Below are positions 4,052 through 45,875 of a stretch of 64,000 nucleotides of DNA, piece by piece. This DNA comes from Thermasporomyces composti. GTDB taxonomy: Bacteria > Actinomycetota > Actinomycetes > Propionibacteriales > Actinopolymorphaceae. The notes beneath the pieces were generated by a model that made no database searches, was not told the DNA's origin, and was given only the letters and a program-made list of their open reading frames with translations. Position 1 is the first letter of the stretch, and each line of letters opens with the position of its first letter. Both the position numbers and the translations under genes were made by a program. Location of the stretch: positions 1,364,001-1,428,000 of the forward strand of contig NZ_QTUC01000001.1 of the NCBI RefSeq assembly GCF_003386795.1, in the 5' to 3' direction.

Positions 4052-4074
4052 GCGTCCGGCGGCGGTCCGCCACC

Positions 4075-4114
4075 GTGACCGGGGACCCGAGCGTGTGACC
4101 GGGGACCTGAGCGT
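4075..4114. repeat. two tandem copies of a 20-bp unit
   Basis: The unit GTGACCGGGGACCYGAGCGT occurs twice head-to-tail (4075-4094 and 4095-4114), differing at one base. It fills the space between the convergent epimerase and lipase genes and abuts the lipase stop codon at 4115-4117. The octamer CTGAGCGT also occurs once more just upstream, at the epimerase stop. A local duplication is the simplest explanation. Confidence 0.85.
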
Positions 4115-29798: not shown

Positions 29799-31253
29799 TC
29801 AGCTCAGGTGAGGCAGCCAACGCTCGTGGTCGCGCGGCTCGTATCGCCGCAACGACTGCGTCCGCCGCACCAGCTCCCGTCCGTGCGCGCGGTCGCGGAC
29901 CACACCCGCGGCGCGCGCCTGGACGAGCAGGTTGCCGATCGCCGTCGCCTCGACCGGCCCCGCCACCACCGGGCGTCCGCAGGCGTCCGCGGTGAGCTGA
30001 CACAGCAGTGTGTTCTGCGCGCCGCCGCCGACGATGTGCACGACGTCCACCCGGCGACCCGACAGACGCTCCGCGAGCCGGATCACCCGCGCGTGTGCGA
30101 GCGCCAGGCTGTCGAGGACGCACCGGGTGACCGCGGCCGGCGTGGTCGGCTCCGGCTGACCGGTCCGCCGGCAGTAGGCGCGGATGCGCCCCGGCATGTC
30201 ACCGGGCGGGAGGAACTCGTCCGACTCGGCGTCGATGACACTGCGCAGCGGTGGCTCGTGCTGGGCGGCCTCGAGCACCTGCTCCAGCGCCACCTCGTCC
30301 CCGGTGTCCCTCCAGTGTCGCAAGGACTCCTGCAGCAACCACAGACCGGTGACGTTCCGCAGGTACCGGATGGTCTTGTCGACGCCGACCTCGTTGGTGA
30401 AGTTGGCGGCGAGGCTCTCCTGCGTGCGCACCGGCGCGTCGAGCTCCACGCCCACCAGTGACCAGGTGCCGCAGGAGATGTAGGCGAAGTGCTCGTCCTC
30501 CGCGGGCACGGCGGCCACCGCGGACGCGGTGTCGTGCGAGGCGACGGTGGTGAGCAGCACCCGGTCAGTGACGCCGAGCCGGGAGCGAAGCTCTGGGCGG
30601 AGCGGTCCGAGCTGCTCCCCCGGCTCCCGCAGTGGCGGGACAAGACGCCGCGGCAGCCCCACGGCCTCGAAGACCGCGTCCGACCAGGTCCCGGCGGCGA
30701 CGTCGTACAGCTGGGTGGTGGAGGCGATCGTGCGTTCCGCGCCGATGGTTCCGCCGAGCCGGTAGCACAAGAGGTCCGGGATCAGGAGCAGGGTCTGGGC
30801 GCGCTCGAGGTCCTCGGGCCGCTCGGCCAAGAGCTGGTAGAGCGTGTTGATGGCGATGAACTGCAGCCCGGTCGCCTCGTACAGGAACGCGTCCCCCACC
30901 TGGGCGCGGACCCGCTCCATCACTCCCGTGGTGCGGCTGTCACGGTAGTGCGCCGGGGGCGCGAGCAGCATGCCCTGGTCGTCGAGCAAGCCGTAGTCGA
31001 CACCCCAGGAGTCGATCCCGATCGACTCCACCGCGCCGTGTCGGTTGGCCTCCCGGAGTCCGGTGAGCACTCCGTCCCACAGCGCTTCGATGTCCCATGA
31101 CAAGCGTCCTTTGACATCGATCGGCTCGTTGGGGAACCGGTGGACCAGCTGACACTCCAGCTGGTCCGGTCCGATCCGACCGAGCACGACCCGTCCACTG
31201 GACGCGCCCAGGTCGACAGCCGCGGCGATGAGGGAGCTCGCCATCGCGATCAC
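29799..31253 (-). CDS. rhaB: rhamnulokinase
   Basis: A 484-residue FGGY-family kinase that phosphorylates L-rhamnulose to L-rhamnulose 1-phosphate. The N-terminal phosphate loop is AAVDLGASSGRVVLG. IGIDSWGVDYGLLD and the HYRDSRT motif (substrate site) are characteristic of RhaB, as are YISCGTWSLVG and VVHIVGGGAQNTLLCQLTADACG in the C-terminal ATP site. The GTG start overlaps the stop of rhaEW (GTGA, 31250-31253); an ATG nine bases later (31244) is an alternative. It is the fourth gene of the rha operon. Confidence 0.95.
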   Translation of the reverse strand: MIAMASSLIAAAVDLGASSGRVVLGRIGPDQLECQLVHRFPNEPIDVKGRLSWDIEALWDGVLTGLREANRHGAVESIGIDSWGVDYGLLDDQGMLLAPPAHYRDSRTTGVMERVRAQVGDAFLYEATGLQFIAINTLYQLLAERPEDLERAQTLLLIPDLLCYRLGGTIGAERTIASTTQLYDVAAGTWSDAVFEAVGLPRRLVPPLREPGEQLGPLRPELRSRLGVTDRVLLTTVASHDTASAVAAVPAEDEHFAYISCGTWSLVGVELDAPVRTQESLAANFTNEVGVDKTIRYLRNVTGLWLLQESLRHWRDTGDEVALEQVLEAAQHEPPLRSVIDAESDEFLPPGDMPGRIRAYCRRTGQPEPTTPAAVTRCVLDSLALAHARVIRLAERLSGRRVDVVHIVGGGAQNTLLCQLTADACGRPVVAGPVEATAIGNLLVQARAAGVVRDRAHGRELVRRTQSLRRYEPRDHERWLPHLS

Positions 31254-33301
31254 CGTAGGAACGCCGCGGCCACGCCGCTGTCGACCGGGATGTGCAGCCC
31301 CGTGGTCAGGGACAGGTCGCCGGCGGTGAGGGCCACCACCGCCGCCGCCACGTGGGAGGGCAGCACCTCCTTCTTCAGGAGTGTCCGCTGGGCGTAGTAC
31401 TCACCCAGCTTCTCCTCGGGCACGCCGTAGACCTTGGCCCGTTCGGCGCCCCACCCACTGGCGAAGATGCCCGAGCCGCGGACCACCGCGTCGGGGTTGA
31501 TGCCGTTGACCCGGATCCCGTAACCGCCGAGCTCGGCGGCCAGCAGCCGCACCTGGTGCGCCTGGTCCGCCTTCGCCGCCCCGTAGGCGATGTTGTTGGG
31601 ACCGGCGACGACACCGTTCTTGCTGCAGATGTAGATGATGTCCCCGCCCATGCCCTGGTCGATGAGGATGCGGGCGGCCGCCTTGGAGACCAGGAACGAG
31701 CCACGGGCCATCACGTCGTGCTGCACGTCCCAGTCCTCGGCCGTCGTCTCGAGCAACGGCTTGGAGATCGACAGGCCGGCGTTGTTGACGACGAGGTCCA
31801 CGCCGCCGAAGGCGAGGACCGCTTGCTCGAGGGCGGCCCGCACCTGCTCCTCGTCGCTGACGTCCACCGTGACCGGCACCGCGACGTCGGTGGACCCGAT
31901 ACCGGCGGCCACCTCAACCGCGGCCTCTGCCTTCACGTCCGCGACGACGACGCAGGCTCCTTCGGACGCCAGTCGCTCGGCGATCGCCTTGCCGATGCCC
32001 GAGCCAGCCCCGGTGACGAACGCGACCCGCGTGGCCAGCGGCTTCGGCTTCGGCATCCGACGCAGCTTCGCCTCCTCCAGCGACCAGTACTCGATGCGGA
32101 ACTTCTCGCGCTCGTCGATCGGCTGGTACGTCGAGATGGCCTCGGCGCCGCGCATCACGTTGATGGCGTTGACGTAGAACTCGCCGGCCACCCGCGCGGT
32201 CTGCTTGTCCTTGCCGAAGCTGAACATGCCCACACCGGGGACGAGCACGATCGCCGGGTCGGCGCCGCGCATCGGCGGACTGGTCTCGTCGGCGTAGCGC
32301 TCGTAGTAGGCGCGGTACTCCTCACGGTAGGCGGCGTGCAGCTCTTTCAACCGCCGCACCACGTCGTCCAACGGCGCCGTCGGCGGAAGGTCCAGCACCA
32401 GCGGCCGGACCTTGGTGCGCAGGAAGTGGTCGGGGCAGGAGGTGCCCAACGCCGCCAGCGCCGGATGCTTCTCACTGGCGAGGAAGTCGAGGACGACGTC
32501 GCTGTCGGTGTAGTGACCGACCTGCGGTCGGTCGGTCGAGACCAGACCGCGGACGATCGGCAGCAGGGCCGCCGCACGCGCGTGCCGTTCCGCCTCCGGC
32601 AACGGCTGGTACTCGGTGATGACGGCGCCGAACGGCTCGGGGCGACCGTGCCGGTCGATGTACTCCTGGCAGGTGCCAATGATCTCCAGCGAGTTCGCCT
32701 CGCACTCCTCGGACGTGTCGCCCCACGCGGTGATGCCGTGCCCACCGAGGATCACCCCGATCGCCTCGGGGTGCTCGCGTTTGACCTTGGCGATGTCCAG
32801 CCCGAGTTGGAACCCGGGGCGACGCCAGGGCACCCACAGCACGCGGGACCCGAAGCACTCCTTGGTCAGCCGCTCCCCGTCCGCGGCGGTGGCGAACGCG
32901 ATGCCGGAGTCGGGGTGGAGGTGGTCGACGTGGACCGCGTCGACCAAGCCGTGCATGGCGGTGTCGATGGACGGGGCCGCGCCGCCCTTGCCGTGCAGGC
33001 AGTAGTCGAACGCCGCGAACATCTCGTCCTCGTACTCGACCCCCCGGTAGACCTTGGTGAGGGCGCGCAGCCGGTCCAGGCGGAGGACGGCGAGCCCGTC
33101 CTCGGTCAGCGTGCCCAGGTCACCACCGGAGCCCTTGACCCACAGCAGCTCGACGCTCTCGCCGGTCACCGGGTCGATGCCGGTCGCCTTGCACGAGGCG
33201 TTGCCGCCCGCGTAGTTCGTGTTGCGGGGGTCCGATCCGAGGCGGTGGCACCGTTCCAGCAGCTCCGCCACCGCTGGTGGCGTCGTACCCGTGGACGTCA
33301 C
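31250..33301 (-). CDS. rhaEW: bifunctional rhamnulose-1-phosphate aldolase / SDR (lactaldehyde dehydrogenase)
   Basis: 683 residues. The N-terminal two thirds (~1-420) is a class II aldolase/adducin-type domain: NYAGGNASCK, WVKGSGGDLG, a metal-binding VDHLHPDSG and GGHGITAWGD. The C-terminal third (~433-683) is an SDR with TGAGSGIG, NNAG and YGAAKADQ. The enzyme would split L-rhamnulose 1-phosphate into dihydroxyacetone phosphate and L-lactaldehyde and oxidise the latter; this RhaEW fusion is known in several bacteria including actinomycetes. The GTG at 33301 lies one base past the rhaI stop. Upstream in-frame codons would run into rhaI. Confidence 0.95.
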   Translation of the reverse strand: MTSTGTTPPAVAELLERCHRLGSDPRNTNYAGGNASCKATGIDPVTGESVELLWVKGSGGDLGTLTEDGLAVLRLDRLRALTKVYRGVEYEDEMFAAFDYCLHGKGGAAPSIDTAMHGLVDAVHVDHLHPDSGIAFATAADGERLTKECFGSRVLWVPWRRPGFQLGLDIAKVKREHPEAIGVILGGHGITAWGDTSEECEANSLEIIGTCQEYIDRHGRPEPFGAVITEYQPLPEAERHARAAALLPIVRGLVSTDRPQVGHYTDSDVVLDFLASEKHPALAALGTSCPDHFLRTKVRPLVLDLPPTAPLDDVVRRLKELHAAYREEYRAYYERYADETSPPMRGADPAIVLVPGVGMFSFGKDKQTARVAGEFYVNAINVMRGAEAISTYQPIDEREKFRIEYWSLEEAKLRRMPKPKPLATRVAFVTGAGSGIGKAIAERLASEGACVVVADVKAEAAVEVAAGIGSTDVAVPVTVDVSDEEQVRAALEQAVLAFGGVDLVVNNAGLSISKPLLETTAEDWDVQHDVMARGSFLVSKAAARILIDQGMGGDIIYICSKNGVVAGPNNIAYGAAKADQAHQVRLLAAELGGYGIRVNGINPDAVVRGSGIFASGWGAERAKVYGVPEEKLGEYYAQRTLLKKEVLPSHVAAAVVALTAGDLSLTTGLHIPVDSGVAAAFLR

Positions 33302-33302
33302 G

Positions 33303-34481
33303 TCACGCACCCCATCCCGCGGCTTGGCCGCCCTTCCGCTCCTCACGGACCCGCTCGGCGTGCCCGGAACGACGGTAGGCGGCCAGCGGGTCGGGGTCGA
33401 TGCCCATCTCCTCGCGTACCTCGGCCAGCAACGGGCGAACGTCAGTGTTGTACGCGTCCATGAGGATCGCGTTGGCCTCGAGCACGTCGCCGTTGGCCTG
33501 CGCCTTGGCGAGCGCGTCCGAGTCGACGAGCAACGCCTTCGCGGTGGCCTCCTGGACGTTCATGACCGAGCGGATCATCGCCGGCACCTTCGGCTCGATG
33601 TTGTGGCACTGGTCGAGCATGAACGCCACGTTCGCCGACGCGTCCAGCGCGCCGGCCTGCACGATCTCGTGCATGATCCGGAACAACTGGAACGGGTCGG
33701 CGGCGCCGACCATGAGGTCGTCGTCGGCGTAGAAGCGACTGTTGAAGTGGAAGCCGCCAAGCTTTCCTTGCCGAAGCAGGAAGGCGACGATGAACTCGAT
33801 GTTGGTGCCCGGCGCGTGGTGGCCGGTGTCGACGAGCACCTGTGCCTTGTCGCCGAGCTCCACGCAGTGCGCGTAGGACGTGCCCCAGTCCGGGATGTCT
33901 GTGGCGTAGAACGCGGGCTCGAAGAGCTTGTACTCCAGCAGCATCCGCTGCCCGTCACCCAACCGCTGGTAGGTCGCGGCGAGCGCCTCGGCGAGCCGAT
34001 CTTGACGAGCCCGCAGGGAGTCCTGTCCCGGGTAGTTCAGACCGTCGGCGAACCACAGGCTGAGGATCGTGGAGCCGGTCGCGTCCATGATGTCGACGCA
34101 CTCGAGCAGATGGTCGAGCGCCTTGGCGCGCACCGCCGGATCGGGGTTGCAGACACTCCCGAGCTTGTAGTCGTCCTCCTGGAAGACGTTGGGGTTGATC
34201 GCGCCGATGCTGATGCCCTTGTCCCGCGCGTAGGCCGCGAGGTCGGCGTAGTCGTCGACCTTGTCCCAGGGGATGTGCAGCGCGATGCTGGGCGCGACGC
34301 CGGTGAGCTGGTGGACGAGGGCGGCGTCGTCGATCTTCTCGTAGGGGTTGCGAGGGACGCCCTCCTGCGCGAACACCTTGAAGCGGGTTCCCGAGTTCCC
34401 ATAGGCCCACGAGGGCGTCTCGATGCGCTGGGCACGCAGAGCGGCCTTCACGGCGGCTTTGCCGCTGGCGTTCGCGGTCAT
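33303..34481 (-). CDS. rhaI: L-rhamnose isomerase
   Basis: A 392-residue isomerase of the Pseudomonas-type (RhaI, TIM-barrel) family that converts L-rhamnose to L-rhamnulose. Metal and catalytic residues are visible in [15 protein letters not shown] (Glu), [11 protein letters not shown] (Asp/His), [15 protein letters not shown] (His and Asp) and the C-terminal VFREEM-like [19 protein letters not shown]. The start ATG at 34481 is preceded by CGGAGATGAG. It is distinct from the E. coli RhaA family by sequence. It sits 23 bases after rhaM and is followed immediately by rhaEW. Confidence 0.95.
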
Positions 34482-34504
34482 CTGCTCATCTCCGTCCTAC
34501 GTGC

Positions 34505-34825
34505 TCAGTCGAGGTGGAAAACCTCGTCGAGCGGTCGCATATCGGTGTCGGCTGCCCCGGACTCCAGATTCTCGAAGAACGGTGCCATCTCAGCCTGCCA
34601 ACGACGGTTGACCTCGCGCTGGGCCATGCCGGCTTTCGCGGCCTCGAAATCCTCGGTCTCGAGGTAACCCACCAGGAGGCCGTCGTCGGACAGGAAGAGC
34701 GAGTAGTTGTGCCAGCCGGTCTCTCGCAAAGCCTGCTGCATTTCCGGCCAGACGTTGCGGTGTCGCTCGCGGTACTCCTCGAGACGGTCAGGCTTGACGC
34801 GCAACACGAAGCACACCCGCTGCAT
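34505..34825 (-). CDS. rhaM: L-rhamnose mutarotase
   Basis: A 106-residue ferredoxin-like-fold enzyme that interconverts the alpha and beta anomers of L-rhamnose. The family pattern is complete: RVCFVLRVKPDRLEEYRERH with the catalytic His, NVWPEM, GWHNYSLFL, LVGYLETEDF and RRWQAEMAPFFE, ending VFHLD. ATG at 34825 fits homologues; the frame is open upstream without homology. It is the first gene of the rha operon, preceded by a LacI-type operator about 113 bases upstream. Confidence 0.95.
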   Translation of the reverse strand: MQRVCFVLRVKPDRLEEYRERHRNVWPEMQQALRETGWHNYSLFLSDDGLLVGYLETEDFEAAKAGMAQREVNRRWQAEMAPFFENLESGAADTDMRPLDEVFHLD

Positions 34826-34937
34826 GAGTGCCGGCCCCTTCCCAGGCGCGTGGAGCGCCGCTCGATCGCCCACGACGCGAGCGACGGCTCGCGCGCCAGC
34901 CTCGTGGCGCCCGCTCGCCGCAACACTCTGGATCGCC

Positions 34938-34949: not shown

Positions 34950-35152
34950 TGGGATCGTAGGAACGCCCAGATACCCGGTCAACGGCGGCGTCCTCGACAG
35001 GTCAGGCCGGATTCGGCACGCGACCCGGGCCCGTGCGGTCGACGAGGACCGCACCGCCGCGAGCGCCACGTCGGCCTGGCACCATCGACCACGCAAGGGC
35101 GACCGCACAAGGGCCCGCCGGGCCTCGTGACATGACAAGGGAGCGAACGCAC

Positions 35153-36448
35153 GTGAGGGCGGACCACGCACCAATCGATCGACCAGTCACCTTCGCGATC
35201 CTCGGCGCCGGTAACCGGGGAACCGTCTACGCGGACTGGATCGCCGCGCATCCGGAGCGTGGCAAGGTCGTCGCGGTCGCCGAGCCGCGGGACCACCACC
35301 GAACCACGCTCGCCCGCCGTCACGGCATCCCCGCGGAGCGTTGTTTCTCCTCCTGGCAGGAGCTCGTCGCCGCCGGCCGCGTGGCCGACGCCGCGATCAT
35401 CGCCACCCAGGACGCCGAGCACGTGGCGCCGGCCGTCGCACTCGCCGAGCTGGGCTACCACCTCGTCGTCGAGAAGCCCATGGCGCCCGACGAGCAGGGT
35501 TGCCGGACTCTCGTCCACGCCGTCGAGAAGGCGGGCGTCATGGTCGCCGTCTGCCACGTGATGCGCTACACGCCGTACACGCGTCTGCTCAAGGAGATCG
35601 TCGACTCCGGCCGGATCGGCACCGTCGTGAGCGTGCAGCACTTGGAGCCGGTCGGCTACTGGCACCAGGCACACTCCTACGTCCGGGGCAACTGGCGCCG
35701 TGAGGACGAGTCGTCACCCATGCTGCTGGCGAAGTCCTGCCACGACATCGACTGGCTGCGCTACGTCGTGGGTGCGCCGATCGAGCGCGTCTCCAGCTTC
35801 GGTTCGCTCCTCCACTTCACCCGAGAGAACGAGCCCGAGGGAGCCGCGGACCGCTGCCTCGACTGCGCGGTGGAGCCTTCGTGCGCCTACTCGGCGAAGA
35901 AGATCTACCTCGGCATGATCGAGCGCGGCCACACCGGCTGGCCGGTGCACGTGCTGACGCACGACCTCACCGTGGAGGGGGTGACCCGCGCGCTGCGCGA
36001 GGGCCCGTACGGCCGGTGTGTCTACCGGTGCGACAACGACGTGGTCGACCACCAGGTGGTGGCCCTGGAGTTCGCCGGCGGCGTCACCGCGACCTTCACC
36101 ATGACCGCGTTCACCGAGCCCGGGCTGCACCGGCGTACCCAGATCTTCGGCACCAAAGGGAGCATCGACGGTGACGGCGTGAACATCCGGGTGTACGACT
36201 TCCTGACCGACCAGACCGAGGAGCACGTGGTGCCGTCGCTCGGGGCTGACGCCGGCTCCGGCCACGGTGGCGGTGACGCGGGTGTGATGGACGCCTTCAC
36301 CCGCGCGCTGCAGAGCGGTGACCCCTCGCACATCAAGTCCGGTCCTCTGGAGTCGTTGGAGACTCATCTCGCTGTCTTCGCCGCCGAGCGCGCGCGGCAC
36401 GCCGGCACCGTCGAGAAGGTGGGGCAGCCGGCAACGGCGCTGGCCTGA
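35153..36448 (+). CDS. Gfo/Idh/MocA oxidoreductase with a Cys-rich insertion
   Basis: 431 residues from GTG 35153, chosen because AAGGGAG lies nine bases upstream; an ATG at 35132 would add seven residues. The Rossmann motif is ILGAGNRGTVYA and the family motif VVEKPMAP. The second domain has the His/Asp pair in LAKSCHDIDWLRYVVG. A segment CLDCAVEPSCAYSAKKIY (around residues 240-260) contains three spaced cysteines and may bind a metal. This long subfamily recurs in plant-glycan loci. It is divergent from the rha operon and 202 bases before the GH2 gene. Substrate unknown; a sugar hydroxyl oxidation is expected. Confidence 0.9.
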   Translation: MRADHAPIDRPVTFAILGAGNRGTVYADWIAAHPERGKVVAVAEPRDHHRTTLARRHGIPAERCFSSWQELVAAGRVADAAIIATQDAEHVAPAVALAELGYHLVVEKPMAPDEQGCRTLVHAVEKAGVMVAVCHVMRYTPYTRLLKEIVDSGRIGTVVSVQHLEPVGYWHQAHSYVRGNWRREDESSPMLLAKSCHDIDWLRYVVGAPIERVSSFGSLLHFTRENEPEGAADRCLDCAVEPSCAYSAKKIYLGMIERGHTGWPVHVLTHDLTVEGVTRALREGPYGRCVYRCDNDVVDHQVVALEFAGGVTATFTMTAFTEPGLHRRTQIFGTKGSIDGDGVNIRVYDFLTDQTEEHVVPSLGADAGSGHGGGDAGVMDAFTRALQSGDPSHIKSGPLESLETHLAVFAAERARHAGTVEKVGQPATALA

Positions 36449-36650: not shown

Positions 36651-38501
36651 GTGCCGGCGGAGTCCCAGGCAGCCAGCGATCCCATCCCCACGACCACGCC
36701 GACCGCGGGGGCCGCCAGCGAGCTTCCCCGGCCCGAGTACCCTCGCCCGCAGTTCGTTCGAGCGGACTGGTTGAACCTCAACGGCTACTGGCAGTTCGAG
36801 ATCGACCCGGGCGACTCGGGTCTCGAACGCGGCCTGCTCGACCGAGAGCTCAGCGGGCGAATCCTCGTGCCCTTCGCTCCCGAGTCCAGCCTGTCGGGCG
36901 TGGGCGAGGTCGACTGGCTCCACGCGGTCTGGTACCGACGCACGGTCCGCGTCCCGGAGGCGTGGGCCGGACGCACCGTGCTGCTGCACTTCCAAGCTGT
37001 CGACTACGACACCACGGTGTGGGTCAACGGCACCGAGGTGGCCCGTCACCGCGGTGGCTGGACGCCGTTCACCGCGAACCTCGGCGAGGTCGCGGGCCAG
37101 GAGATCACGATCGTGGTCCGCGCCCGCGACCCCAAGGGCGAGCCGATCGCTCGGGGCAAGCAGTCCGACCGCTACGGCAACTACGGGTGTCTCTACACCC
37201 GCACGACTGGCATCTGGCAGACGGTGTGGATGGAGCCGGTGCCGACGACCCACCTGCGCCGGCCCCGGATCACGCCGGACGTCGCCGGGGGCGCGTTCCA
37301 CCTCGAGCTCCCGCTCGCCGGGCCGCGCCGTGGCATCACCGCCCGCGCCCGGTTGACCGACGACGCGGGGGTCGTCTCGACCGCCAGCGTGCGCGCCGAC
37401 CTCGACTTCGCCGCCCGGCTCACCCTGCCCGTCCCGGAGGAGCGTCGCCGGCTCTGGTCGCCCGAGGATCCCTTCCTCTACGGCCTCGAGCTGGAGCTCG
37501 TCGCCGAGGACGGCACCGTGGTCGACAGCGCGACCAGCTACGCCGGCCTCCGGTCGGTCACCATCGACGGCCACGCGATCCTGCTCAACGGCCAGCCGGT
37601 GTTCCAGCGACTCGTGCTCGACCAGGGCTACTACCCGGACGGCATCCTGACCGCGCCCGACGACGCCGCGCTCGTCCGTGACATCGAGCTCGCCAAGGCC
37701 GCGGGCTTCAACGGCGCCCGCCTCCACCAGAAGGTGTTCGAGGAGCGCTTCCTCTACCACGCCGACCGGCTGGGCTACCTATGCTGGGGCGAGTTCGGCG
37801 ACTGGGGCTGCAACACCGGCAAGGACGGGGACAACCAGCAGCCGGGCGCCACCTACATCACCCAGTGGCTGGAAGCCGTCGAGCGGGACTACTCCCACCC
37901 CTCGATCATCGGGTGGTGCCCGCTCAACGAGACCTGGCAGCGTCTCCACGACCGGATCACCGTCCTGGACGACGTCACCCGCGGCATGTTCCTGGCGACC
38001 AAGGCCGCCGACCAGACCCGGCCGGTCCTCGACGCCTCCGGCTACTCCCACCGGGTGCGGGAGAGCGACGTCTACGACTCGCACAACTACGAGCAGGACC
38101 CCGAGAAGTTCGCGGCCGCGATGGCCGGCTTGGCCGAGGGCCGTCCCTTCACCAACTCCGGCGGGCCCGACCGCCCGTGGTCGGTGCCGTACGCCGGACA
38201 GCCCTACTTCTGCAGCGAGTTCGGTGGCATCTGGTGGAACCCCGACGCCCGAGAGGACGAGGACTCGTGGGGCTACGGCGAGCGTCCGCGCAGCCTGGAG
38301 GAGTTCTACCAGCGGTTCGAGGCGCTGGTCAGTGTCCTGCTCGATGACCCGAAGATGTTCGGCTACTGCTACACCCAGCTCACCGACGTCTACCAGGAGC
38401 AGAACGGCATCTACCGCTTCGACCGGAGCCAGAAGTTCGACCTCGAGCGGATTCGCGCCGCTCAGACCCGGCCGGCCGCGATCGAGAAGGCGGCGCGATG
38501 A
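36651..38501 (+). CDS. glycoside hydrolase family 2 enzyme
   Basis: 616 residues without a signal peptide, so cytoplasmic. Order: jelly-roll sugar-binding domain (~30-205; WLNLNGYWQFEID, VWYRRTVRVPEAW, YDTTVWVNGTEVARHRGGWTPF), immunoglobulin-like domain (~210-300) and a TIM barrel (~300-600). The acid/base Glu is in CPLNETW (E427) and the nucleophile Glu in YFCSEFGG (E523). It would hydrolyse a beta-linked galactoside, glucuronide or related sugar; the specificity is not evident. The GTG start has GAAGGAG upstream and a palindromic operator lies just before. The stop overlaps the next start (ATGA), coupling the two proteins. Confidence 0.92.
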   Translation: MPAESQAASDPIPTTTPTAGAASELPRPEYPRPQFVRADWLNLNGYWQFEIDPGDSGLERGLLDRELSGRILVPFAPESSLSGVGEVDWLHAVWYRRTVRVPEAWAGRTVLLHFQAVDYDTTVWVNGTEVARHRGGWTPFTANLGEVAGQEITIVVRARDPKGEPIARGKQSDRYGNYGCLYTRTTGIWQTVWMEPVPTTHLRRPRITPDVAGGAFHLELPLAGPRRGITARARLTDDAGVVSTASVRADLDFAARLTLPVPEERRRLWSPEDPFLYGLELELVAEDGTVVDSATSYAGLRSVTIDGHAILLNGQPVFQRLVLDQGYYPDGILTAPDDAALVRDIELAKAAGFNGARLHQKVFEERFLYHADRLGYLCWGEFGDWGCNTGKDGDNQQPGATYITQWLEAVERDYSHPSIIGWCPLNETWQRLHDRITVLDDVTRGMFLATKAADQTRPVLDASGYSHRVRESDVYDSHNYEQDPEKFAAAMAGLAEGRPFTNSGGPDRPWSVPYAGQPYFCSEFGGIWWNPDAREDEDSWGYGERPRSLEEFYQRFEALVSVLLDDPKMFGYCYTQLTDVYQEQNGIYRFDRSQKFDLERIRAAQTRPAAIEKAAR

Positions 38502-40264
38502 CGTCACCGGCAGGAACGGCGAGCGAGGCGAGTCCGCTCGCCTTCCTCGCCGCCGCGGTCGACAGCTACGCGCCGTACCTGCAGGAGTCCGGTGAGCTCC
38601 ACGACCCGGTGTTCGGTGAGCCGACGCAGTACGGCACCGCCTACCACGCCTACTGCAACGCGGTGCTCGCCACCGTCGGACCCGCCGAGCGACGGGCGTG
38701 GTACCTCGATCGCGCGCTCCGCGGGCTGGAGGCGGCGCTCGCGCACACCGGTGACCCGGACCTGCCCGCCGCCGCCTCCGGCTTCGACCGCGCCACCGGT
38801 GCGGTGAGCAGGGGGAACCACCGCGACTTCACCTGGCCGCCGATCCTCAAGTCCTACCGCCTGCTCAAGGCCGAGGGTCGGGCCGCGGCCTTGGCCGACC
38901 GCATCGCCGCCGTCGACATCGAGCGCTCCTTCCGGTCCCGGCCACCGTCGAACTGGGCGTCAGTGTGGCTGTCCGGTGAGTGGATCCGCATCCAGCAGCA
39001 GCTCTCGCCGTTCACCGTCGACGACGTCGACGCCTGGCTGGACGTCTTCTTCGAGGACCTGCTGCGCCCTGACGACGGGTTCTACTTCGAGCCGGGCAAG
39101 CCCAACTCCTACGACCTGTTCACCCGCTTCCACGTGGCCGACCTGCTACGCGAGGGGTACGACGGTCGGTGGCGGGAGACGCTCGAGCGCCTCATGGTCA
39201 CCGGACTCGAGCGCAGTCTCGCCGTCCAGATGTCCGACGGCTCGCTCGCGTCCGCCCACCGCAGCACCGGTCAGACGTGGACGGTGGGCGCTCAGGTGGC
39301 GTACTTCACCTACGCGGCGGAGTACTTCGGCCGCCGAGGGGACAGCGACCGGGCGAGCCGCGCCGCCGAGGCCGCGCGACGCGCGTTCGCGTCGCTGCGA
39401 CGCTGGCGACGCTCCGGTGACGTGTTCAGCCCGGTCGAGAACGTGCTGCCGCCGGGATATCGGGTGGGCTACGAGCGCTACACCGCCGACGCCCACTACG
39501 GCAACCTCGCGCTGGCCTTTCTCGCCTCGGCGATCCTGGCCGGCTTCACCGACGCGGGTAGGGTCCCCGCGGAACGGTCCCCAACCGTGCGGGTCGAGGG
39601 AGCTCCCACGTTCCGCGGCGTCGCCCACGCCGGTCGCTACAGCATCGCGGTCAACGCCGACCCCGCACCCCAGTACGACGGCTTCGGCATCACGGACCTG
39701 ACCGTCGGCCCGGATCGCTACCTGCAGTTCGCGTCGAGCGTCCGGCACGTCGAGTCCGGCCGGTTCTTCAACCTCGGCACCGCGCTGCGCTCCACGCCAG
39801 GGCGAAGCCCTCTCGATGTCCTCGCCCAGCGGACGTTCACCCTCCGCGAGCCGTTGACGCCGCTGGAGGGTGACGGCTCTCGCGGCCTCCGGCTGCGTGC
39901 CCACACCGCCGGGGGAGCCGACGGCTCGACCCCCGAGCTGGACTACGAGCTCGCGGTCACCGTCGAGCCCACCGGCGTCCACGTGGAGGAGGCGACGCCC
40001 GGCCACACCACGTACCGCACCCTCCTCGTCCCCTACCCGCGCGACGTCGGCACCGGAGTCATCACCCAGGTGCAGGGGACCCGCGACGGCATCCGGCTCC
40101 TCCACGGCGGCGAAGAGGTCGACGTGACGGTCGACGCCGAGATCGAGGCGATCACCTCACTGCCGTACGGCTACGAGAATCGTCGCGGCCTGTGCGGCCT
40201 GGTCCGGATCGACCTGCGCGAGCCCGCCGACCGGGTGCGGTTCCGGCTGGCCGTCGTCCGTTGA
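38498..40264 (+). CDS. unrecognised protein, probable carbohydrate-active enzyme
   Basis: 588 residues, no signal peptide. Residues ~1-360 look like an all-helical alpha/alpha toroid with many aromatic and acidic positions (WPPILKSYRLLKAEGR, RPPSNWASVWLSGEWIRIQQQ, FYFEPGKPNSYDLFTRFHVADLL, YRVGYERYTADAHYGNLALAFLASAI). Residues ~370-588 look beta-rich (FRGVAHAGRYSIAVNADP, DLTVGPDRYLQFASSVRHV), a layout shared with heparinase-like lyases and several glycosidase families. I cannot name a family. Conserved-looking Tyr, His and Asp/Glu residues in YERYTADAHYGN and KPNSYD could be catalytic. Its ATGA overlap with the GH2 gene argues that both act on the same oligosaccharide. Confidence 0.75.
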   Translation: MTSPAGTASEASPLAFLAAAVDSYAPYLQESGELHDPVFGEPTQYGTAYHAYCNAVLATVGPAERRAWYLDRALRGLEAALAHTGDPDLPAAASGFDRATGAVSRGNHRDFTWPPILKSYRLLKAEGRAAALADRIAAVDIERSFRSRPPSNWASVWLSGEWIRIQQQLSPFTVDDVDAWLDVFFEDLLRPDDGFYFEPGKPNSYDLFTRFHVADLLREGYDGRWRETLERLMVTGLERSLAVQMSDGSLASAHRSTGQTWTVGAQVAYFTYAAEYFGRRGDSDRASRAAEAARRAFASLRRWRRSGDVFSPVENVLPPGYRVGYERYTADAHYGNLALAFLASAILAGFTDAGRVPAERSPTVRVEGAPTFRGVAHAGRYSIAVNADPAPQYDGFGITDLTVGPDRYLQFASSVRHVESGRFFNLGTALRSTPGRSPLDVLAQRTFTLREPLTPLEGDGSRGLRLRAHTAGGADGSTPELDYELAVTVEPTGVHVEEATPGHTTYRTLLVPYPRDVGTGVITQVQGTRDGIRLLHGGEEVDVTVDAEIEAITSLPYGYENRRGLCGLVRIDLREPADRVRFRLAVVR

Positions 40265-40340: not shown

Positions 40341-42359
40341 TCAGTCCCGCAGGTCGAGCCAGCGGACCTGCTCGGGTGTCAGCTCCACCCGCAGGGCCTC
40401 GAACGAGCTCCGGGTCTCGGCGAGCGTCCGCGGACCGATGATCGGGAACGTCGGGAAGTCCTGGTGCAGCACGTACGCCAGGGCGATCGCCGTCGGCGCG
40501 ACGTTCCACTGAGCGGCGAGCTCCCGCGCCCGGGCGAGCCGTTCGAAGTTGTCGTCGCTGTACCAGCAGCGGACCAGCTCCGGGTCGGAGCGGTCGTCGG
40601 GAGCGGCCCGCCCGGTGAAGAAGCCGCGCGCCTGGCTCGACCACGGGATGAGCGCGAGCTGGTTCTTCTCCAGCCACTGCCGCGACTCGTCGTCCGACGA
40701 CGCCAGGCAGCCCGGCCACGGCACGTCGAGCGCTCGCGCCAAGCTGAAGTTGTTGCTCACCGCGACGAACGGCGCCTTGCCGGCACGCTCGGCGTAGGCG
40801 TTGGCCTCGGCGATCCGAGCCAGGGTCCAGTTCGAGCCGCCGTAAGCGCGGATTCGGCCGGCTCGCAGGTGCTCGTCCAGCACGTCGACGAACTCCGACA
40901 CCGGGATGCTGGGGTTGTCGCGGTGCATGAAGTAGATGTCGACGTAGTCGGTCTGCAGCCGCTCCAAGCTCTCGTACAGCTGGCGGGTGATCGACTCCGG
41001 GTCGCAGTGGGGCGTGTGGGCACCCTTGCCGATGATGACGACCTCCGAGCGCAACCCGCGGTTGCGGATCCACTGGCCGAGGACCCGCTCACACAACCCG
41101 CCGCCGTAGATGTACGCCGTGTCGAACGCCGTGCCGCCCCGCTCCACGAAGTCGTCGAACATGACCGACGCGTGCGCCAGCGTCGTCTGGTTGTCCACGC
41201 CCATGACCAGGCGCGAGACGGGTTTGCCCACACCGGGCACCTCGCCGTACCGCATCCGGTGGTCGGCGCGCCGCCGCAGCGGACGACGGTGCACGATGGG
41301 TCGGTTGGCATCGATCCGCTCGTCGGGGTACGTCAATCCGATCGCGGCCCGCCAGCGGTCCAGCACCGCCATCGTGCCCAGCGTGTCGTCCCAACTCATC
41401 GCCGGTGCTTGACGCGCATCGAGATGGGCGGCGACAGTGTCGGCCTCCGCCGCGTACAGCGGGGTCGGCTCGACGTCGATCCGCTCGACATCCTCACCCA
41501 GCCGGTAGACCTCGATGCCGCACGGGCTGCCGTCGCGTCCGGGTAGCCACGGGTTCGGCACCACCAGGTAGCCCTCGCTGCCCACGACCCGGACGACGTT
41601 CTCCGCGGTCTGTCGCACACCGGTGACCACGTGCGCGGAGATGTCCCCCGGGAACACCAAGGTGGCCGCCGCCCACTCGTCGACGCCGGTCTCCCCGACC
41701 CGACCTCGCGCCGTGATCGACACCGGTTCGGCGAACGGCTTCCCCACCGCGACGCCAGCGAGCAGCCGCGCCATCGTCACCGGGTACCCGCCGACGTCCA
41801 GGATCCCTCCGCCGGCCAGCTCCGGCTCCCACAGCCGCCCGCCCGGCGTCGGCCGGGAGTGGAACGCGAAGGAGGCCTCGATGTGGTGGACCTCGCCGAT
41901 CACGCCCTCTCGAATGAGCTCCACCAGCTTCGCCGTCTGCGGAACGCAGCGGTACATGTACGCCTCCATGAGGAAGACGTCATGCTCGCGCGCCGCCTCG
42001 ATGACCGCCATCGCCTCGGCGTGATTGACGGTCAACGGCTTCTCGCACAGGACATGCTTGCCCGCCTCGGCGGCCCGGATCGCCCACTCCGCGTGCATCG
42101 GATGCGGGGTGGCGACGTAGACCGCGTCCACCTCGGGATCGGCCAACAGCTCCGCATAGCTGCCGTAACCGCGAGCGGCGCCATACTCCGCGGCGAACTC
42201 CCGCGCCTTCGCCTCGTCGCGACTTCCCACGGCGACGAGGACGCCTGTCCTCGACGCCGGGAGGTCGGCCGCGAACCTGCGCGCGATGCCGCCGGGTCCG
42301 AGGATGCCCCAGCGGAGTCGTCGAGCGTTCTGCTCCATGTCCTGTCCGTCCTGTCCCAT
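40341..42359 (-). CDS. Gfo/Idh/MocA - aldo/keto reductase fusion protein
   Basis: About 672 residues joining two oxidoreductase folds. Residues ~10-340: a Gfo/Idh/MocA enzyme with WGILGPGGIARRFAADL, CEKPLTVN and a GGGILDVGGYPVTMARLL substrate helix. Residues ~360-672: an aldo/keto reductase barrel with FDTAYIYGGGLCERVLG (catalytic Asp/Tyr), VVIIGKGAH (Lys), DYVDIYFMHRDNP (His), AYGGSNW and the NADP-binding C-terminal PIIGPRTLAETRSS. A protein that both oxidises and reduces sugars could epimerise them or recycle its cofactor. ATG 42359 follows AAAGG; ATG 42338 is an alternative. It is convergent with the GH2 pair and divergent from the sugar importer. Confidence 0.88.
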   Translation of the reverse strand: MGQDGQDMEQNARRLRWGILGPGGIARRFAADLPASRTGVLVAVGSRDEAKAREFAAEYGAARGYGSYAELLADPEVDAVYVATPHPMHAEWAIRAAEAGKHVLCEKPLTVNHAEAMAVIEAAREHDVFLMEAYMYRCVPQTAKLVELIREGVIGEVHHIEASFAFHSRPTPGGRLWEPELAGGGILDVGGYPVTMARLLAGVAVGKPFAEPVSITARGRVGETGVDEWAAATLVFPGDISAHVVTGVRQTAENVVRVVGSEGYLVVPNPWLPGRDGSPCGIEVYRLGEDVERIDVEPTPLYAAEADTVAAHLDARQAPAMSWDDTLGTMAVLDRWRAAIGLTYPDERIDANRPIVHRRPLRRRADHRMRYGEVPGVGKPVSRLVMGVDNQTTLAHASVMFDDFVERGGTAFDTAYIYGGGLCERVLGQWIRNRGLRSEVVIIGKGAHTPHCDPESITRQLYESLERLQTDYVDIYFMHRDNPSIPVSEFVDVLDEHLRAGRIRAYGGSNWTLARIAEANAYAERAGKAPFVAVSNNFSLARALDVPWPGCLASSDDESRQWLEKNQLALIPWSSQARGFFTGRAAPDDRSDPELVRCWYSDDNFERLARARELAAQWNVAPTAIALAYVLHQDFPTFPIIGPRTLAETRSSFEALRVELTPEQVRWLDLRD

Positions 42360-42532
42360 GCCTCCAAGCCTTTCAGGCCGGCCGTCAGGGACCGTCACCC
42401 GATCCGCTACCGGCCGCGCCGATGGCCGAAGCCGGACAGCGTCGGACGGGACTCCGCTCACCGCTCGCCTCGCCCGTTCGCGCCGTGTTGCCGGGAGCGG
42501 TCCCCGGTGTGATCAGGTCTTGCCAGATCACG

Positions 42533-42603: not shown

Positions 42604-44013
42604 GTGGCCTTGTCGAGAACACCGAAAAGACTGGCCATGACCCGCCGACGCGCTTTAACGACCATGGGCGGACTCGGACTCGGCGTCCTGGGCCTGGCGA
42701 CCGGAGGCTGCACCATCACCAAGGGAACGCCGCCCATTTCCAATGTCGGCCTCGACAAGAAGCCGGCGCCGGGCCGAAAGACCACCATCACGGTCTACAG
42801 CGTGTGGGGCAGCACGGTCGGCGAGGGGATGGTCAAGCTCGCCCAGCGGTTCGAGGAAAGCCAACCGGACATTGGCGTTCGTGTCGTCTACGCGCCAGCC
42901 GGCATCGGCGGTGGTGCCGTTCAGCAGAAGCTGTTCACCGCGATCGCGGGCAACAACCCACCCGACGTCGCCCAGCTCGTCCCGTCCCAAGGACCGCAAT
43001 GGGCCGAGCTGGGAATCATGACAGACCTGACCGACCGTTACCGCGAGGCGGGTCTTGGACCAGACGACTTCTTCCCACCGGTCTGGGACAGCATCACCTA
43101 CAAGGACCGCATCTGGCAGGTGCAGTGGGACGCCGACCCGAACTTTCCGTTCTTCTGGAACAAGGATCTCTTCGAGGAGTCCGGCCTCGACCCTGAGCGA
43201 CCGCCGCAGACCATCGAGGAGGTCGACGAGTACTCCGCCAAGATTCTGCGGAAATCGGGCGCGAACGTCACCAAGATCGGCATGATCCCGTGGGACACAT
43301 ACGGGGCTTCCAACTCGCTCTTCACCTGGGGGTTCGCGCATGGCGGCACCTTCTACGACCCCGAGAAGGAGGAGGTCACCCCGGATAACGAGTACGTCGT
43401 CAAAGCGCTGGAATGGATCGCTCGGTACGCCAAGTCGGTCGGCGGCGCAGACCGGGTGACGGTCACCCCACCGGGGCTGCAGATCCATCCCTTCGGCACC
43501 GGCAACATCGGTATGGCGCCGCTGGTGGCGCCCAACTATCGGGACGTCAAGGTGAACGTCCCCGACATGAACATCGGGGCCGCTCTCCTGCCGTTCCAGG
43601 CGCCCGGAGCAGACCGGCCAGGCGCTGGAGCCTGGATCGGCGGCTGGAGCATGTTCATCCCGAAGGGGGCTCGCCATCCCGACGAGGCGTGGGAGTTCCT
43701 GCGCTGGGTCGGCGCGACCGACGAGGGCACCCGCGCACAGTGGGAGACCGTCGGCTTCCCGCCCGGCTACACGAAGGCGTCGGTGCTGGAGGAGATCAAG
43801 AACGACCCGCTCATGGGCCCGTTCTACGACGTTCTCACGACGGCGCGGAACATCCGCCCGCCCATCCCGGTCGCCGACTTCTACTTCACCCAGCTCGATG
43901 AGAACGTCAGCAAGGCGGTGCTCGGGCTCGTCACTCCGCTGGAGGCGATGCGAACCGTCAAGGAGAACGTCATGGCCGAGTGGGACAGGTTCCGGAAGGC
44001 GGTCAAGGCATGA
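42604..44013 (+). CDS. sugar ABC transporter substrate-binding lipoprotein (family 1)
   Basis: 469 residues from GTG 42604, preceded by GGGAGG (three bases away); ATG 42637 is an alternative without a ribosome binding site. The signal region TRRRALTTMGGLGLGVLGLATGGC has a Tat-like Arg cluster and a probable lipid-anchored C36. The mature part has the family-1 layout: ITVYSVWGSTVGEGMVKLAQRFEESQPDI, then PDVAQLVPSQGPQWAELG, FFWNKDLFEESGL and GGWSMFIPKGARHPDEAWEFLRW. It captures an oligosaccharide outside the cell for the two permeases encoded next, with coupled ATGA translation. Ligand unknown; neighbours point to a plant-derived glycoside. Confidence 0.92.
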   Translation: MALSRTPKRLAMTRRRALTTMGGLGLGVLGLATGGCTITKGTPPISNVGLDKKPAPGRKTTITVYSVWGSTVGEGMVKLAQRFEESQPDIGVRVVYAPAGIGGGAVQQKLFTAIAGNNPPDVAQLVPSQGPQWAELGIMTDLTDRYREAGLGPDDFFPPVWDSITYKDRIWQVQWDADPNFPFFWNKDLFEESGLDPERPPQTIEEVDEYSAKILRKSGANVTKIGMIPWDTYGASNSLFTWGFAHGGTFYDPEKEEVTPDNEYVVKALEWIARYAKSVGGADRVTVTPPGLQIHPFGTGNIGMAPLVAPNYRDVKVNVPDMNIGAALLPFQAPGADRPGAGAWIGGWSMFIPKGARHPDEAWEFLRWVGATDEGTRAQWETVGFPPGYTKASVLEEIKNDPLMGPFYDVLTTARNIRPPIPVADFYFTQLDENVSKAVLGLVTPLEAMRTVKENVMAEWDRFRKAVKA

Positions 44014-44978
44014 CGACGACCTCGATGACCCCTCCTCGCCCCGCGGCCGTGGGAGCGCGCAAGCGCCGCGTCCTGGCGTCCGTGCTCGGGGAAACGCCCC
44101 GAGAGCGCCGCAACTTCCTCTGGGGTCTGCTGTTCACGTCGCCGGCGATCATCGGGTTGGCGTGGTTCACCGCGTACCCGGTGTTCATGTCGATCTACTA
44201 CAGCTTCACCTCCGCCACCATGGTCAATCCGCCCGACTTCATCGGGCTGGACAACTACGCCGTCCTCATGTCCGACAGCACGTGGTGGAGGTCGCTCGCC
44301 AACACCGTCTACTACATCGTGGTGAGCGTGCCATTGGGCATCGCGGTGGCGCTCTTCCTCGCCATCCTGCTCAACCTCAAGGTTCGCGGGCAGTCCATCT
44401 ACCGCGTGATCTTCTACTTGCCCGCGATCGTTCCGGTCGTCGCCTCAGCCGTCGTCTGGCTGTACGTGTTCAACCCGCAGTACGGCGTTCTCAACACCGT
44501 GCTCGGCTGGTTCGGCATCACCGGGCCTGGCTGGCTGGCCAGTCCTGACTTTGCGATGCCGGCCCTCATCATCTTCAGCACGTGGGGCGCGGGGAACCTC
44601 ATGATCATTCTGCTGGCCGGTCTGCAGGACGTGCCGCAGGACCTCCAAGACCAAGCCATGGTCGACGGCGCGGGACGGTTCCGACGGTTCTGGCACGTGA
44701 CCATCCCCTTCCTCAGCCCGCACCTGCTCTTCGCCTTGGTGACCGGGCTCATCGCCGGCTTCCAGTTCTTCACACCGGTGTTCGTGCTGACGAACGGCAC
44801 CGGTGGACCAGCCGGTAGCACCCTCGTCTCCGGGCTGTACCTGTACCAGAACGCTTTCCAGTTCTTCAAAGTCGGCTACGCGTCCGCCATTGCGTGGGTG
44901 CTCTTCATCATCGTCGCTCTGGCGACCGCTCTGGTCTTCCGGTTGGTCGGCCGGCGTGTCTACTACGGAGGAGCTTAG
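44010..44978 (+). CDS. sugar ABC transporter permease (MalF type)
   Basis: 322 residues with six predicted membrane helices, from FLWGLLFTSPAIIGLAWF to the C-terminal IAWVLFIIVALATALVFRLVG. The ATPase-contacting EAA loop is DQAMVDGAGRFRRFWHVTIPFLSP. The N-terminal TSPAIIGL...AYPVFMSIYYSFT is typical of carbohydrate permeases of this class. Its ATG overlaps the binding-protein stop. No ATPase gene is adjacent; actinomycetes commonly share one MsiK-type ATPase among many sugar importers. Confidence 0.93.
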   Translation: MTTTSMTPPRPAAVGARKRRVLASVLGETPRERRNFLWGLLFTSPAIIGLAWFTAYPVFMSIYYSFTSATMVNPPDFIGLDNYAVLMSDSTWWRSLANTVYYIVVSVPLGIAVALFLAILLNLKVRGQSIYRVIFYLPAIVPVVASAVVWLYVFNPQYGVLNTVLGWFGITGPGWLASPDFAMPALIIFSTWGAGNLMIILLAGLQDVPQDLQDQAMVDGAGRFRRFWHVTIPFLSPHLLFALVTGLIAGFQFFTPVFVLTNGTGGPAGSTLVSGLYLYQNAFQFFKVGYASAIAWVLFIIVALATALVFRLVGRRVYYGGA

Positions 44979-44990
44979 GAGGCAGGTCCT

Positions 44991-45875
44991 ATGGCCGTGG
45001 CACACCGGACTGCACACGCTCTCCCCGCCCGGCGGCGTCCCGAGGGCGTCTGGCAGAAGCTGGTCGAGCGCATCGTCAGCCACACCGTCCTCATCACCTT
45101 CAGCGTGATCTTCATGATCCCGTTTTTCTGGATGGTGTCGGGCTCGCTCAAGACCGGCCAGGACCTGAACGCCTTCCCCGTCGTGTGGTTTCCCAAGACG
45201 CTCACCCTGGAGAACTACATCGCCGGGCTGCAGGTGTTCCCGTTCGTGCGATACCTGTTCAACACGCTCGTGATCTGCGTGTTCTCCATGATTGGTGCGG
45301 TCCTGTCGAGCTCCTTCGTTGCCTACGGGCTCGCCCGCATCGAGTGGCGATGGCGGACACCGCTGTTCGTCGTGATCCTCAGCACCATGATGGTGCCGTT
45401 CTACGTGACGATGGTGCCGCTGTTCACCATGTTCCGGGCGATGGGCTGGACGAACACCTACCTTCCGCTCATCGTCCCGCACTTCTTCGGGGTTCCGTTC
45501 TTCATCTTCCTGCTGCGGCAGTTCTTCTTGAGCATTCCACGAGAACTGTCGGAGTCGGCCCGCGTGGACGGCGCGAACGAGCTCGTCATCTACTGGCGAA
45601 TCATCCTGCCACTGGCGAAGCCGGCGTTGGCGGCCGTCGCGCTGTTCCAGTTCCTGACGTCGTGGAACGACCTGCTCGGTCCGCTCATCTACTTGAGCGA
45701 CGCCGACCACTACACCCTGTCGCTCGGTCTGACCTTCTTCCGCGCCGAGTACAGCTCGCAGTTCGGTCCCCTCATGGCCGCCAGCACCGTGGTCGTGCTG
45801 CCCGTCATCGTGGTCTTCTTCTTCGCTCAGCGCACGTTCATCCAGGGGATCACCTTGACGGGCATGAAGGGCTGA
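44991..45875 (+). CDS. sugar ABC transporter permease (MalG type)
   Basis: 294 residues and six predicted membrane helices. IFMIPFFWMVSGSLKTGQDLNAFP opens the protein as usual for MalG homologues. The EAA loop is ESARVDGANELVIYWRIILPLAKPALA, and the end is FFFAQRTFIQGITLTGMKG, the typical carboxy terminus of this class. ATG at 44991 lies 12 bases after the first permease with AGGAGGCAGG upstream. It closes the importer operon, with a strong hairpin 23 bases past the stop. Confidence 0.94.
   Translation: MAVAHRTAHALPARRRPEGVWQKLVERIVSHTVLITFSVIFMIPFFWMVSGSLKTGQDLNAFPVVWFPKTLTLENYIAGLQVFPFVRYLFNTLVICVFSMIGAVLSSSFVAYGLARIEWRWRTPLFVVILSTMMVPFYVTMVPLFTMFRAMGWTNTYLPLIVPHFFGVPFFIFLLRQFFLSIPRELSESARVDGANELVIYWRIILPLAKPALAAVALFQFLTSWNDLLGPLIYLSDADHYTLSLGLTFFRAEYSSQFGPLMAASTVVVLPVIVVFFFAQRTFIQGITLTGMKG

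Follow-up and report, generated by a model that had tools for sequence, protein, structure and literature searches.

The window analysed here is a 64,000-nucleotide stretch of the genome of Thermasporomyces composti, a member of the Actinopolymorphaceae (contig NZ_QTUC01000001.1, positions 1,364,001 to 1,428,000). It contains a gene for a 588-residue protein, P0001, hereafter the target, which lies downstream of a glycoside hydrolase family 2 (GH2) gene and close to genes of an ABC transporter and of L-rhamnose catabolism (Table 1). The open reading frame (ORF) of the target starts with ATG, contains no in-frame stops and, as the original prediction had it, shares the nucleotides ATGA with the TGA stop codon of the GH2 ORF, as is seen in the printed sequence. 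Its G+C content at the three codon positions (0.71/0.53/0.91) is typical of a real high-GC gene, and ten homologues with 49-69% identity align with it over the whole length. Thus, the ORF is not a product of chance, and the gene is confirmed as real. A search of the T. composti genome found no second copy.

Inspection of the N-terminus by eye revealed no apparent signal peptide; the chain runs into the first predicted toroid helix, and the orthologues start within about 12 residues of the target start. The protein is probably cytoplasmic, in line with what had been proposed from the sequence.

Family distribution and sequence searches

The target has no match in Pfam at E ≤ 1, or in NCBIfam and PHROGs at 0.01. 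Among PDB sequences, phmmer found nothing below E 0.3 and a profile search nothing up to E 10; the family is called unnamed here with respect to these four collections. When the 11 aligned members were compared with Pfam, the matches were all weak and fell in five unrelated families, the best (E 0.0093) coming from a single member. The failure to recognise a family in the original prediction is therefore borne out by the libraries, and a match to a family with a non-carbohydrate role was looked for and not found. DUF2264 and other known Pfam families were ruled out, there being no Pfam match. The literature search found no paper linking DUF2264 or Actinopolymorpha with a polysaccharide lyase (PL), and for cytoplasmic lyases in combination with rhamnose and arabinogalactan it returned only general reviews. 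The target belongs to a family that is new but has a known fold, and does not represent a new kind of system.

This family is rare. The carrier counts are lower bounds, the genome searches having scored only some candidates per genome (e.g. 3 to 6). The family was found in 10 of 57 genomes, including that of T. composti, namely in all eight Actinopolymorphaceae searched and in two members of another family of the order. Profile searches identified it in 11 of 196 genomes at the level of the order, in 2 of 345 at the level of the class, both already among the known carriers, and in 3 of 296 at the level of the phylum, including one weak match over 52 positions. In the family of a distant actinobacterial carrier, G282, only G282 itself was positive (1 of 39 genomes). 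A named genome collection contained the family in three Actinopolymorpha species (A. alba, A. rutila and A. pittospori) and in one metagenome-assembled genome (MAG) labelled as PVC group. The MAG copy (L005, 2652-4364) is 49% identical to the target and lies on a short contig next to an ORF that by eye resembles a DNA methyltransferase; it may reflect horizontal transfer or misbinning.

The plasmid search revealed one remote relative, a 741-residue protein (WP_269822051.1) on Escherichia coli plasmid p13QT31-2, its relationship being confirmed by an hhalign alignment of the toroid (P 2e-18). Unlike the target, it has an extra N-terminal region, a diverged beta domain and a biosynthetic setting, a capsule biosynthesis locus with UDP-glucose 6-dehydrogenase and dTDP-rhamnose genes. 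Its gene (L015, 11491-13716) is annotated as encoding a hypothetical protein, and the plasmid is typed as mobilizable. No relative was found in viral contigs or phage records, and a viral origin of the target was ruled out on these grounds.

Predicted fold and candidate active site

The AlphaFold model of the whole chain, built from a five-sequence alignment, predicts a helical toroid followed by an antiparallel beta-sandwich, with a mean pLDDT (per-residue confidence) of 73.9 and a pTM of 0.69; several conserved loops have pLDDT values below 50, including residues 199-203, just before Tyr205, and 387-416. Modelled alone, the beta domain reached a pLDDT of 82.6. Both models agree with the combination of a helical toroid and a beta-rich C-terminus originally predicted. 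The order of the domains in the predicted structure is that of toroid lyases, and both the PL33-type layout, with a toroid and a C-terminal antiparallel beta-sheet domain, and the PL35-type fold are present in the models.

When the whole model was compared with the PDB by Foldseek, 43 chains had E ≤ 0.001. Judged by their titles and family membership, those at ranks 1-37 are toroid lyases or dermatan sulfate epimerase. The best match was BcPL35 (9o3q; E 3.9e-9, TM 0.55, rmsd 7.5), followed by the PL33 enzyme BT4410 (E 1.3e-8). With the beta domain alone, Foldseek ranks 1-15 were occupied by PL35, PL33 and PL15 chains (9o3q at 6e-5, PL33 at 7e-5), the PL35 chains being at ranks 1 and 4. The VIA comparison of this domain gave Z 15.7 for PL33 (8r6z, residues 408-643, 200 residues aligned at 3.5 Å), 15.5 for PL12 and 14.9 for a galactose-mutarotase-like protein and PL15, followed by other mutarotases, dermatan sulfate epimerase (14.4) and PL35 (14.3), values within 1 of each other being regarded as tied. 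The layout originally assigned to several lyase and glycosidase families can be narrowed, as its lyase-type architecture stands, to the whole-chain fold of PL33-, PL35- and PL12-type lyases. A glycan-active enzyme with lyase architecture is well supported.

In an alignment of ten sequences including the E. coli relative, residues H108, D110, N152, W153, E161, Y205, D206, D222, R255, W261, R322 and E326 are identical in every row. Of the 46 invariant toroid residues, 31 are located on the face formed by the inner-helix starts, where 18.9 would be expected (Fisher p 1e-4, and 7e-4 and 8e-4 when the windows are narrowed), while the outer-helix starts hold 10 against 16.9 expected; the windows and the assignment of inner and outer helices were of our own choosing. 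A predicted structure without an active-site cleft had been named as one outcome that would speak against the original prediction. Instead, the conserved residues cluster on a single face of the toroid, which fits the expectation for such a cleft.

Within this face, Asn152-Trp153 and Tyr205 may form a catalytic pair, a hypothesis based on order and spacing rather than on sequence significance. In PL33, N238, Y291 and H444 are invariant, the N238A and Y291A variants had no quantifiable activity and H444A was about 17,000-fold less active (PMC11848413). N238 and Y291 are 53 residues apart, as are N152 and Y205 of the target, and this spacing is kept in seven of the ten rows, the remaining three having 57, 56 and 49. 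The PL33-like neighbour P0003 (see below), when aligned with BT4410, also shows an NNW and Tyr motif. According to Table 4 of PMC12088678, an Asn neutraliser is followed 53 to 63 residues later by a Tyr in PL35, PL12, PL17, PL39, PL15 exo-heparinase, PL8 AC lyase and PL23; these distances are our own arithmetic on the residue numbers given there, and for PL39 Tyr239 of that paper was used, which is numbered 259 in PMC11848413. The order of the active-site residues along the helices was likewise compared with that of GAGase II from the residue numbers in PMC12088678 and a DSSP reading.

Gene neighbourhood

Table 1. Features of the target protein and its neighbouring genes (positions in the window).
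Feature	Position	Strand	Basis or remarks
L-rhamnose catabolism: rhamnulokinase, bifunctional rhamnulose-1-phosphate aldolase/dehydrogenase, L-rhamnose isomerase, rhamnose mutarotase	29799..34873	-	
Gfo/Idh/MocA oxidoreductase, start codon uncertain	35132..36448	+	
GH2 glycosidase, nearest GH2_19	36651..38501	+	Stop overlaps the target ATG
Target P0001, 588 residues	38498..40264	+	ORF, translation, whole-length homologues
Predicted alpha toroid, residues 13-347; inner helices start at about 44, 109, 154, 204, 260 and 332	38534..39538	+	AlphaFold and DSSP; inner/outer assignment read by the authors
His108, NHRDF motif, start of inner helix 2; candidate substrate-binding residue	38819..38821	+	Identical in 10/10 rows; putative role
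Asn152-Trp153, start of inner helix 3; candidate carboxylate neutraliser	38951..38956	+	Identical in 10/10 rows; compare PL33 N238; putative role
Tyr205, start of inner helix 4; candidate acid/base	39110..39112	+	Identical in 10/10 rows; putative role; local pLDDT about 64
Predicted antiparallel beta-sandwich, residues 364-588	39587..40261	+	AlphaFold; Foldseek and VIA matches to PL35/PL33/PL12/PL15 C-terminal domains
Tyr393, first beta loop, possibly near the PL33 His444/His446 motif	39674..39676	+	Invariant in 11 orthologues; not invariant in the 10-row alignment that includes the E. coli relative; register interpolated; pLDDT below 50
His417, possibly near PL33 Tyr470 / PL17 Tyr450	39746..39748	+	Invariant in 11 orthologues; His in 9/10 rows, Tyr in 1; register interpolated; low local confidence
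Fused Gfo/Idh/MocA and aldo-keto reductase, 706 residues, conserved neighbour	40341..42461	-	
ABC transporter genes: solute-binding lipoprotein and two permeases, starts by eye	42637..45875	+	UgpB-like match weak, below cut-off; permease 1 by Pfam; permease 2 by eye and conservation

The GH2, fused Gfo/Idh-aldo-keto reductase and transporter genes are also found near the target in the other seven Actinopolymorphaceae loci. The GH2 coupling originally noted holds for T. composti, and a GH2 gene is near the target in all eight Actinopolymorphaceae, but in the other seven a gap of about 0.1 to 2.7 kb separates the end of the GH2 match from the target match, and in one (L029) the GH2 match is on the opposite strand. 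The ATGA overlap was seen in the T. composti genome only, and translational coupling is not conserved. The nearest PDB chain to the GH2 protein is 7xyr (E 3.4e-136), deposited as a beta-glucuronidase, followed by beta-D-galactofuranosidase 9j6n/9j6m. A published remark describes 7xyr as an uncharacterised GH2_19 enzyme. The best NCBIfam model, beta-glucuronidase PRK10150, scored 127.7 bits against a cut-off of 544. The GH2 partner originally identified stands as such, with the qualification that it appears nearest to GH2_19, in a furanosidase group, as judged from the nearest PDB chain and the published remark and not from a subfamily model.

Among the rhamnose genes, the isomerase and the aldolase score above the NCBIfam cut-offs and the kinase and the mutarotase below them. 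The window also encodes a GH78 rhamnosidase and a LacI regulator. A further Gfo/Idh oxidoreductase gene (window positions 47740-49553, minus strand) adjoins that of a ThuA-domain protein; such pairs often accompany keto-sugar pathways. The 706-residue protein has a single tblastn match over nearly its whole length in each of the seven other Actinopolymorphaceae loci, so the Gfo/Idh/MocA-aldo-keto reductase fusion is conserved. About 15 kb past the end of the window, at positions 1443137-1444066 of the contig, there is a Lyase_8 (PL8-type) match, and the whole T. composti genome contains four Lyase_8 and five Hepar_II_III_C matches and a weak, partial GH88/GH105 match only.

In a distant actinobacterium (L036), the target homologue adjoins the PL33-like protein P0003, and a PL22-like protein and a GH2 close to beta-galacturonidase are encoded in the same row. 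Near these genes, at 3174-4805 on the plus strand, lies P0004, a protein of 544 residues that matches nothing in Pfam and nothing convincingly in the PDB and is possibly another unassigned glycan enzyme.

Possible reaction, substrate and rival explanations

The favoured explanation is that the target represents a cytoplasmic family of the toroid lyase type that acts by beta-elimination on a uronate oligosaccharide, with a rhamnose-(1,4)-glucuronate end as the favoured candidate substrate. We hold it tentatively, at a little below an even chance, as the best guess. In this scheme, the oligosaccharide would be imported through the ABC transporter encoded close to the target and processed in the cytoplasm, most likely being bound in a cleft between the toroid and the beta-sandwich. 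Asn152, with the help of Trp153, would serve as the carboxylate neutraliser, and Tyr205 would abstract the proton from C5 and supply one to O4 of the departing sugar. The substrate may be represented by gum-arabic side chains; the L-rhamnose released could be passed to RhaM and RhaI, and the GH2 furanosidase may trim the remainder. A substrate of the rhamnose-glucuronate type is favoured because uronic acid and rhamnose recur at the loci of the family, as rhamnose catabolism here and as rhamnose and UDP-glucuronate genes in E. coli. The PL33-like, PL22-like and uronidase-like GH2 neighbours in L036 also count in favour of the explanation.

The comparison with known systems shows how far this likeness extends. 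PL33 (BT4410) shares the toroid followed by a beta-sandwich, and has an Asn-Trp and a Tyr (N238-W239/Y291) with the spacing of the candidate pair, but the target differs in having no sequence match to PL33, no HNHNDVG motif with His444 and no apparent signal peptide. PL33 includes hyaluronan, heparosan, chondroitin and gellan lyases. PL35 (BcPL35, 9O3Q, and GAGase II) provides the best whole-chain fold match and an Asn/Tyr spacing of 54, but has no sequence match, and no equivalent of its catalytic His is recognisable in the target. The PL35 enzymes described in PMC12269599 and PMC12088678 act on glycosaminoglycans, one of them also on alginate. The heparinase III, alginate lyase, exo-heparinase and heparinase II families (PL12, PL15, PL17, PL21 and PL39) share the domain order, a Tyr preceded by Asn or another neutraliser, and fold matches, whereas the Hepar_II_III_C Pfam domain is not matched in the target. 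The lyases known for the rhamnose-glucuronate bond are PL27 and PL42 (PMC8377490). These L-rhamnose-alpha-1,4-D-glucuronate lyases perform the reaction, on the substrate, that is proposed for the target, and PL27 (BACCELL_00875; 5noa) has a toroid (Z 19.8 on the toroid). However, its beta-sandwich is N-terminal, the reverse of the predicted target, and PL42 is a beta-propeller, so they are at most functional analogues.

A number of observations weigh against beta-elimination or against the proposed substrate. No PL33 chain was found with the target by phmmer or profile search of the PDB, while P0003 finds PL33 chains in the same set at 7.6e-60. PL35 chains 9o3q, 8khv and 8khw, present in this set, were not found either. 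Neither the target, at E ≤ 1, nor the 11 members matched Hepar_II_III_C (PF07940), and the target had no Pfam Lyase_8 match, the hhalign comparison with eight Lyase_8 proteins giving E 0.13. No significant hhalign bridge was obtained to PL8, PL33-like or heparinase-II/III-type proteins, and alignments A6 and A1 gave nothing with the PL33-like pair at other settings. On the ungapped diagonal with PL33-like sequences, 9.7% of 40-residue windows score higher than the N152/Y205 register (2.3% for the beta register), and competing diagonals outscore it, e.g. target residues 236-275 on 238-277 of the PL33-like sequences; being not significant, this scoring was dropped as a link to the PL33-like proteins. 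The E. coli relative, which keeps N152, W153, Y205 and R255, has an Asn to Tyr spacing of 49. The Asn itself is replaced by Arg in PL15 alginate lyase, by Glu in PL21 and by Asp in one PL8 enzyme (PMC12088678). The HNHNDVG motif is absent, by eye, from the 11 aligned orthologues, and its possible replacements sit in low-confidence parts of the models. The original prediction, in which no catalytic signature was recognised, is modified in that a candidate Asn-Trp/Tyr pair has been found. In addition, the VIA comparison of the beta domain places galactose mutarotases level with lyases.

The genomic context adds further points of this kind. GH88 or GH105 is the usual partner clearing the unsaturated product, so its scarcity counts against a lyase: of the 12 carriers, one has a near-full-length Pfam match, five have a weak partial match above the cut-off and six have none. 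Co-occurrence with GH88/GH105 was thus not found as support for a lyase. Rhamnose isomerase is present in all 12 carriers and in 14 of 22 non-carriers of our choice. In the four carriers searched outside the Actinopolymorphaceae, it is at least about 450 kb from the target (G008, G052 and G409) or on another contig (G282), and none of the rhamnose proteins of the window had a tblastn match in loci L033-L036 or at L005 of the MAG. In the eight Actinopolymorphaceae (G000-G007), the distance from the isomerase to the target is 4.0, 5.0, 8.1, 6.2, 8.2, 8.7, 6.3 and 6.2 kb. The presence of the isomerase is therefore not discriminating, while its close linkage in this family is suggestive.

The main rival is hydrolysis, which we consider unlikely on balance. 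The target would then be a glycoside hydrolase sharing the fold of the lyases, with D110, E161, D206, D222 and E326, all identical in the ten rows, serving to hydrolyse the bond or to hydrate an unsaturated uronide, as in GH88/GH105, and with the beta domain being only structural. This reading would accommodate the loss of the lyase His motif, and the 11 of 12 carriers without a near-full-length GH88/GH105 leave a gap that the target could fill. When VIA was run with the whole model, only the toroid was aligned, and sugar epimerases, GH88/GH105 hydrolases and others (Z about 20-22) ranked above the lyases, which speaks for a hydrolase and against a lyase; judged from these models, the toroid alone does not discriminate between families. 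By contrast, the whole chain aligns best with lyases, the beta domain alone also ranks them first, and the target has no Pfam Glyco_hydro_88 match. GH88 and GH105 enzymes are single-domain toroids, and the matched chains have about 330-400 residues.

A uronate epimerase or dehydratase, which would alter the uronic acid and leave the chain uncut, is quite improbable. Dermatan sulfate epimerase is at rank 18 of the whole-model Foldseek list (E 3.8e-6) and has a beta-domain Z of 14.4, and several toroid Tyr and Arg residues are invariant, two tyrosines and an arginine having been proposed as catalytic in the glucuronide dehydratase BcGDH (PMC12269599). An epimerase would also make sense in the biosynthetic locus of the E. 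coli relative, but the likeness to dermatan sulfate epimerase is one of fold only, and the setting in the Actinopolymorphaceae is catabolic. A non-catalytic or binding protein that retained the lyase fold would explain why no complete known lyase triad is recognisable, but is very improbable given that 23 charged, amide, His, Tyr or Trp toroid positions are invariant across very distant relatives and that the invariant positions concentrate on one face, which is unusual for a dead enzyme.

Beta-elimination by the target can also be framed more specifically. In this form, which is improbable, it would define a new intracellular toroid PL family acting on rhamnose-(1,4)-glucuronate ends, with Asn152 and Tyr205 kept, Tyr393 in place of the His motif and His417 where PL33 and PL17 have Tyr, PL33 Tyr470 having been equated with the PL17 base Tyr450 (PMC11848413). 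Tyr393 would lie near the His444/446 loop of PL33 and His417 near Tyr470, a hypothesis for which the register was interpolated from the VIA range (model 1-231 on 8r6z 408-643).

The known toroid lyases are mainly exported enzymes that depolymerise glycosaminoglycans and alginate. If the favoured explanation is true, the toroid fold would be extended to an apparently cytosolic, rhamnose-linked setting, and the enzyme could serve as a tool for plant and bacterial glycans that are capped with rhamnose. With clear Asn and Tyr candidates at hand, the mechanism is open to direct testing, and the E. coli relative ties a probably degradative family to a capsule-making locus.

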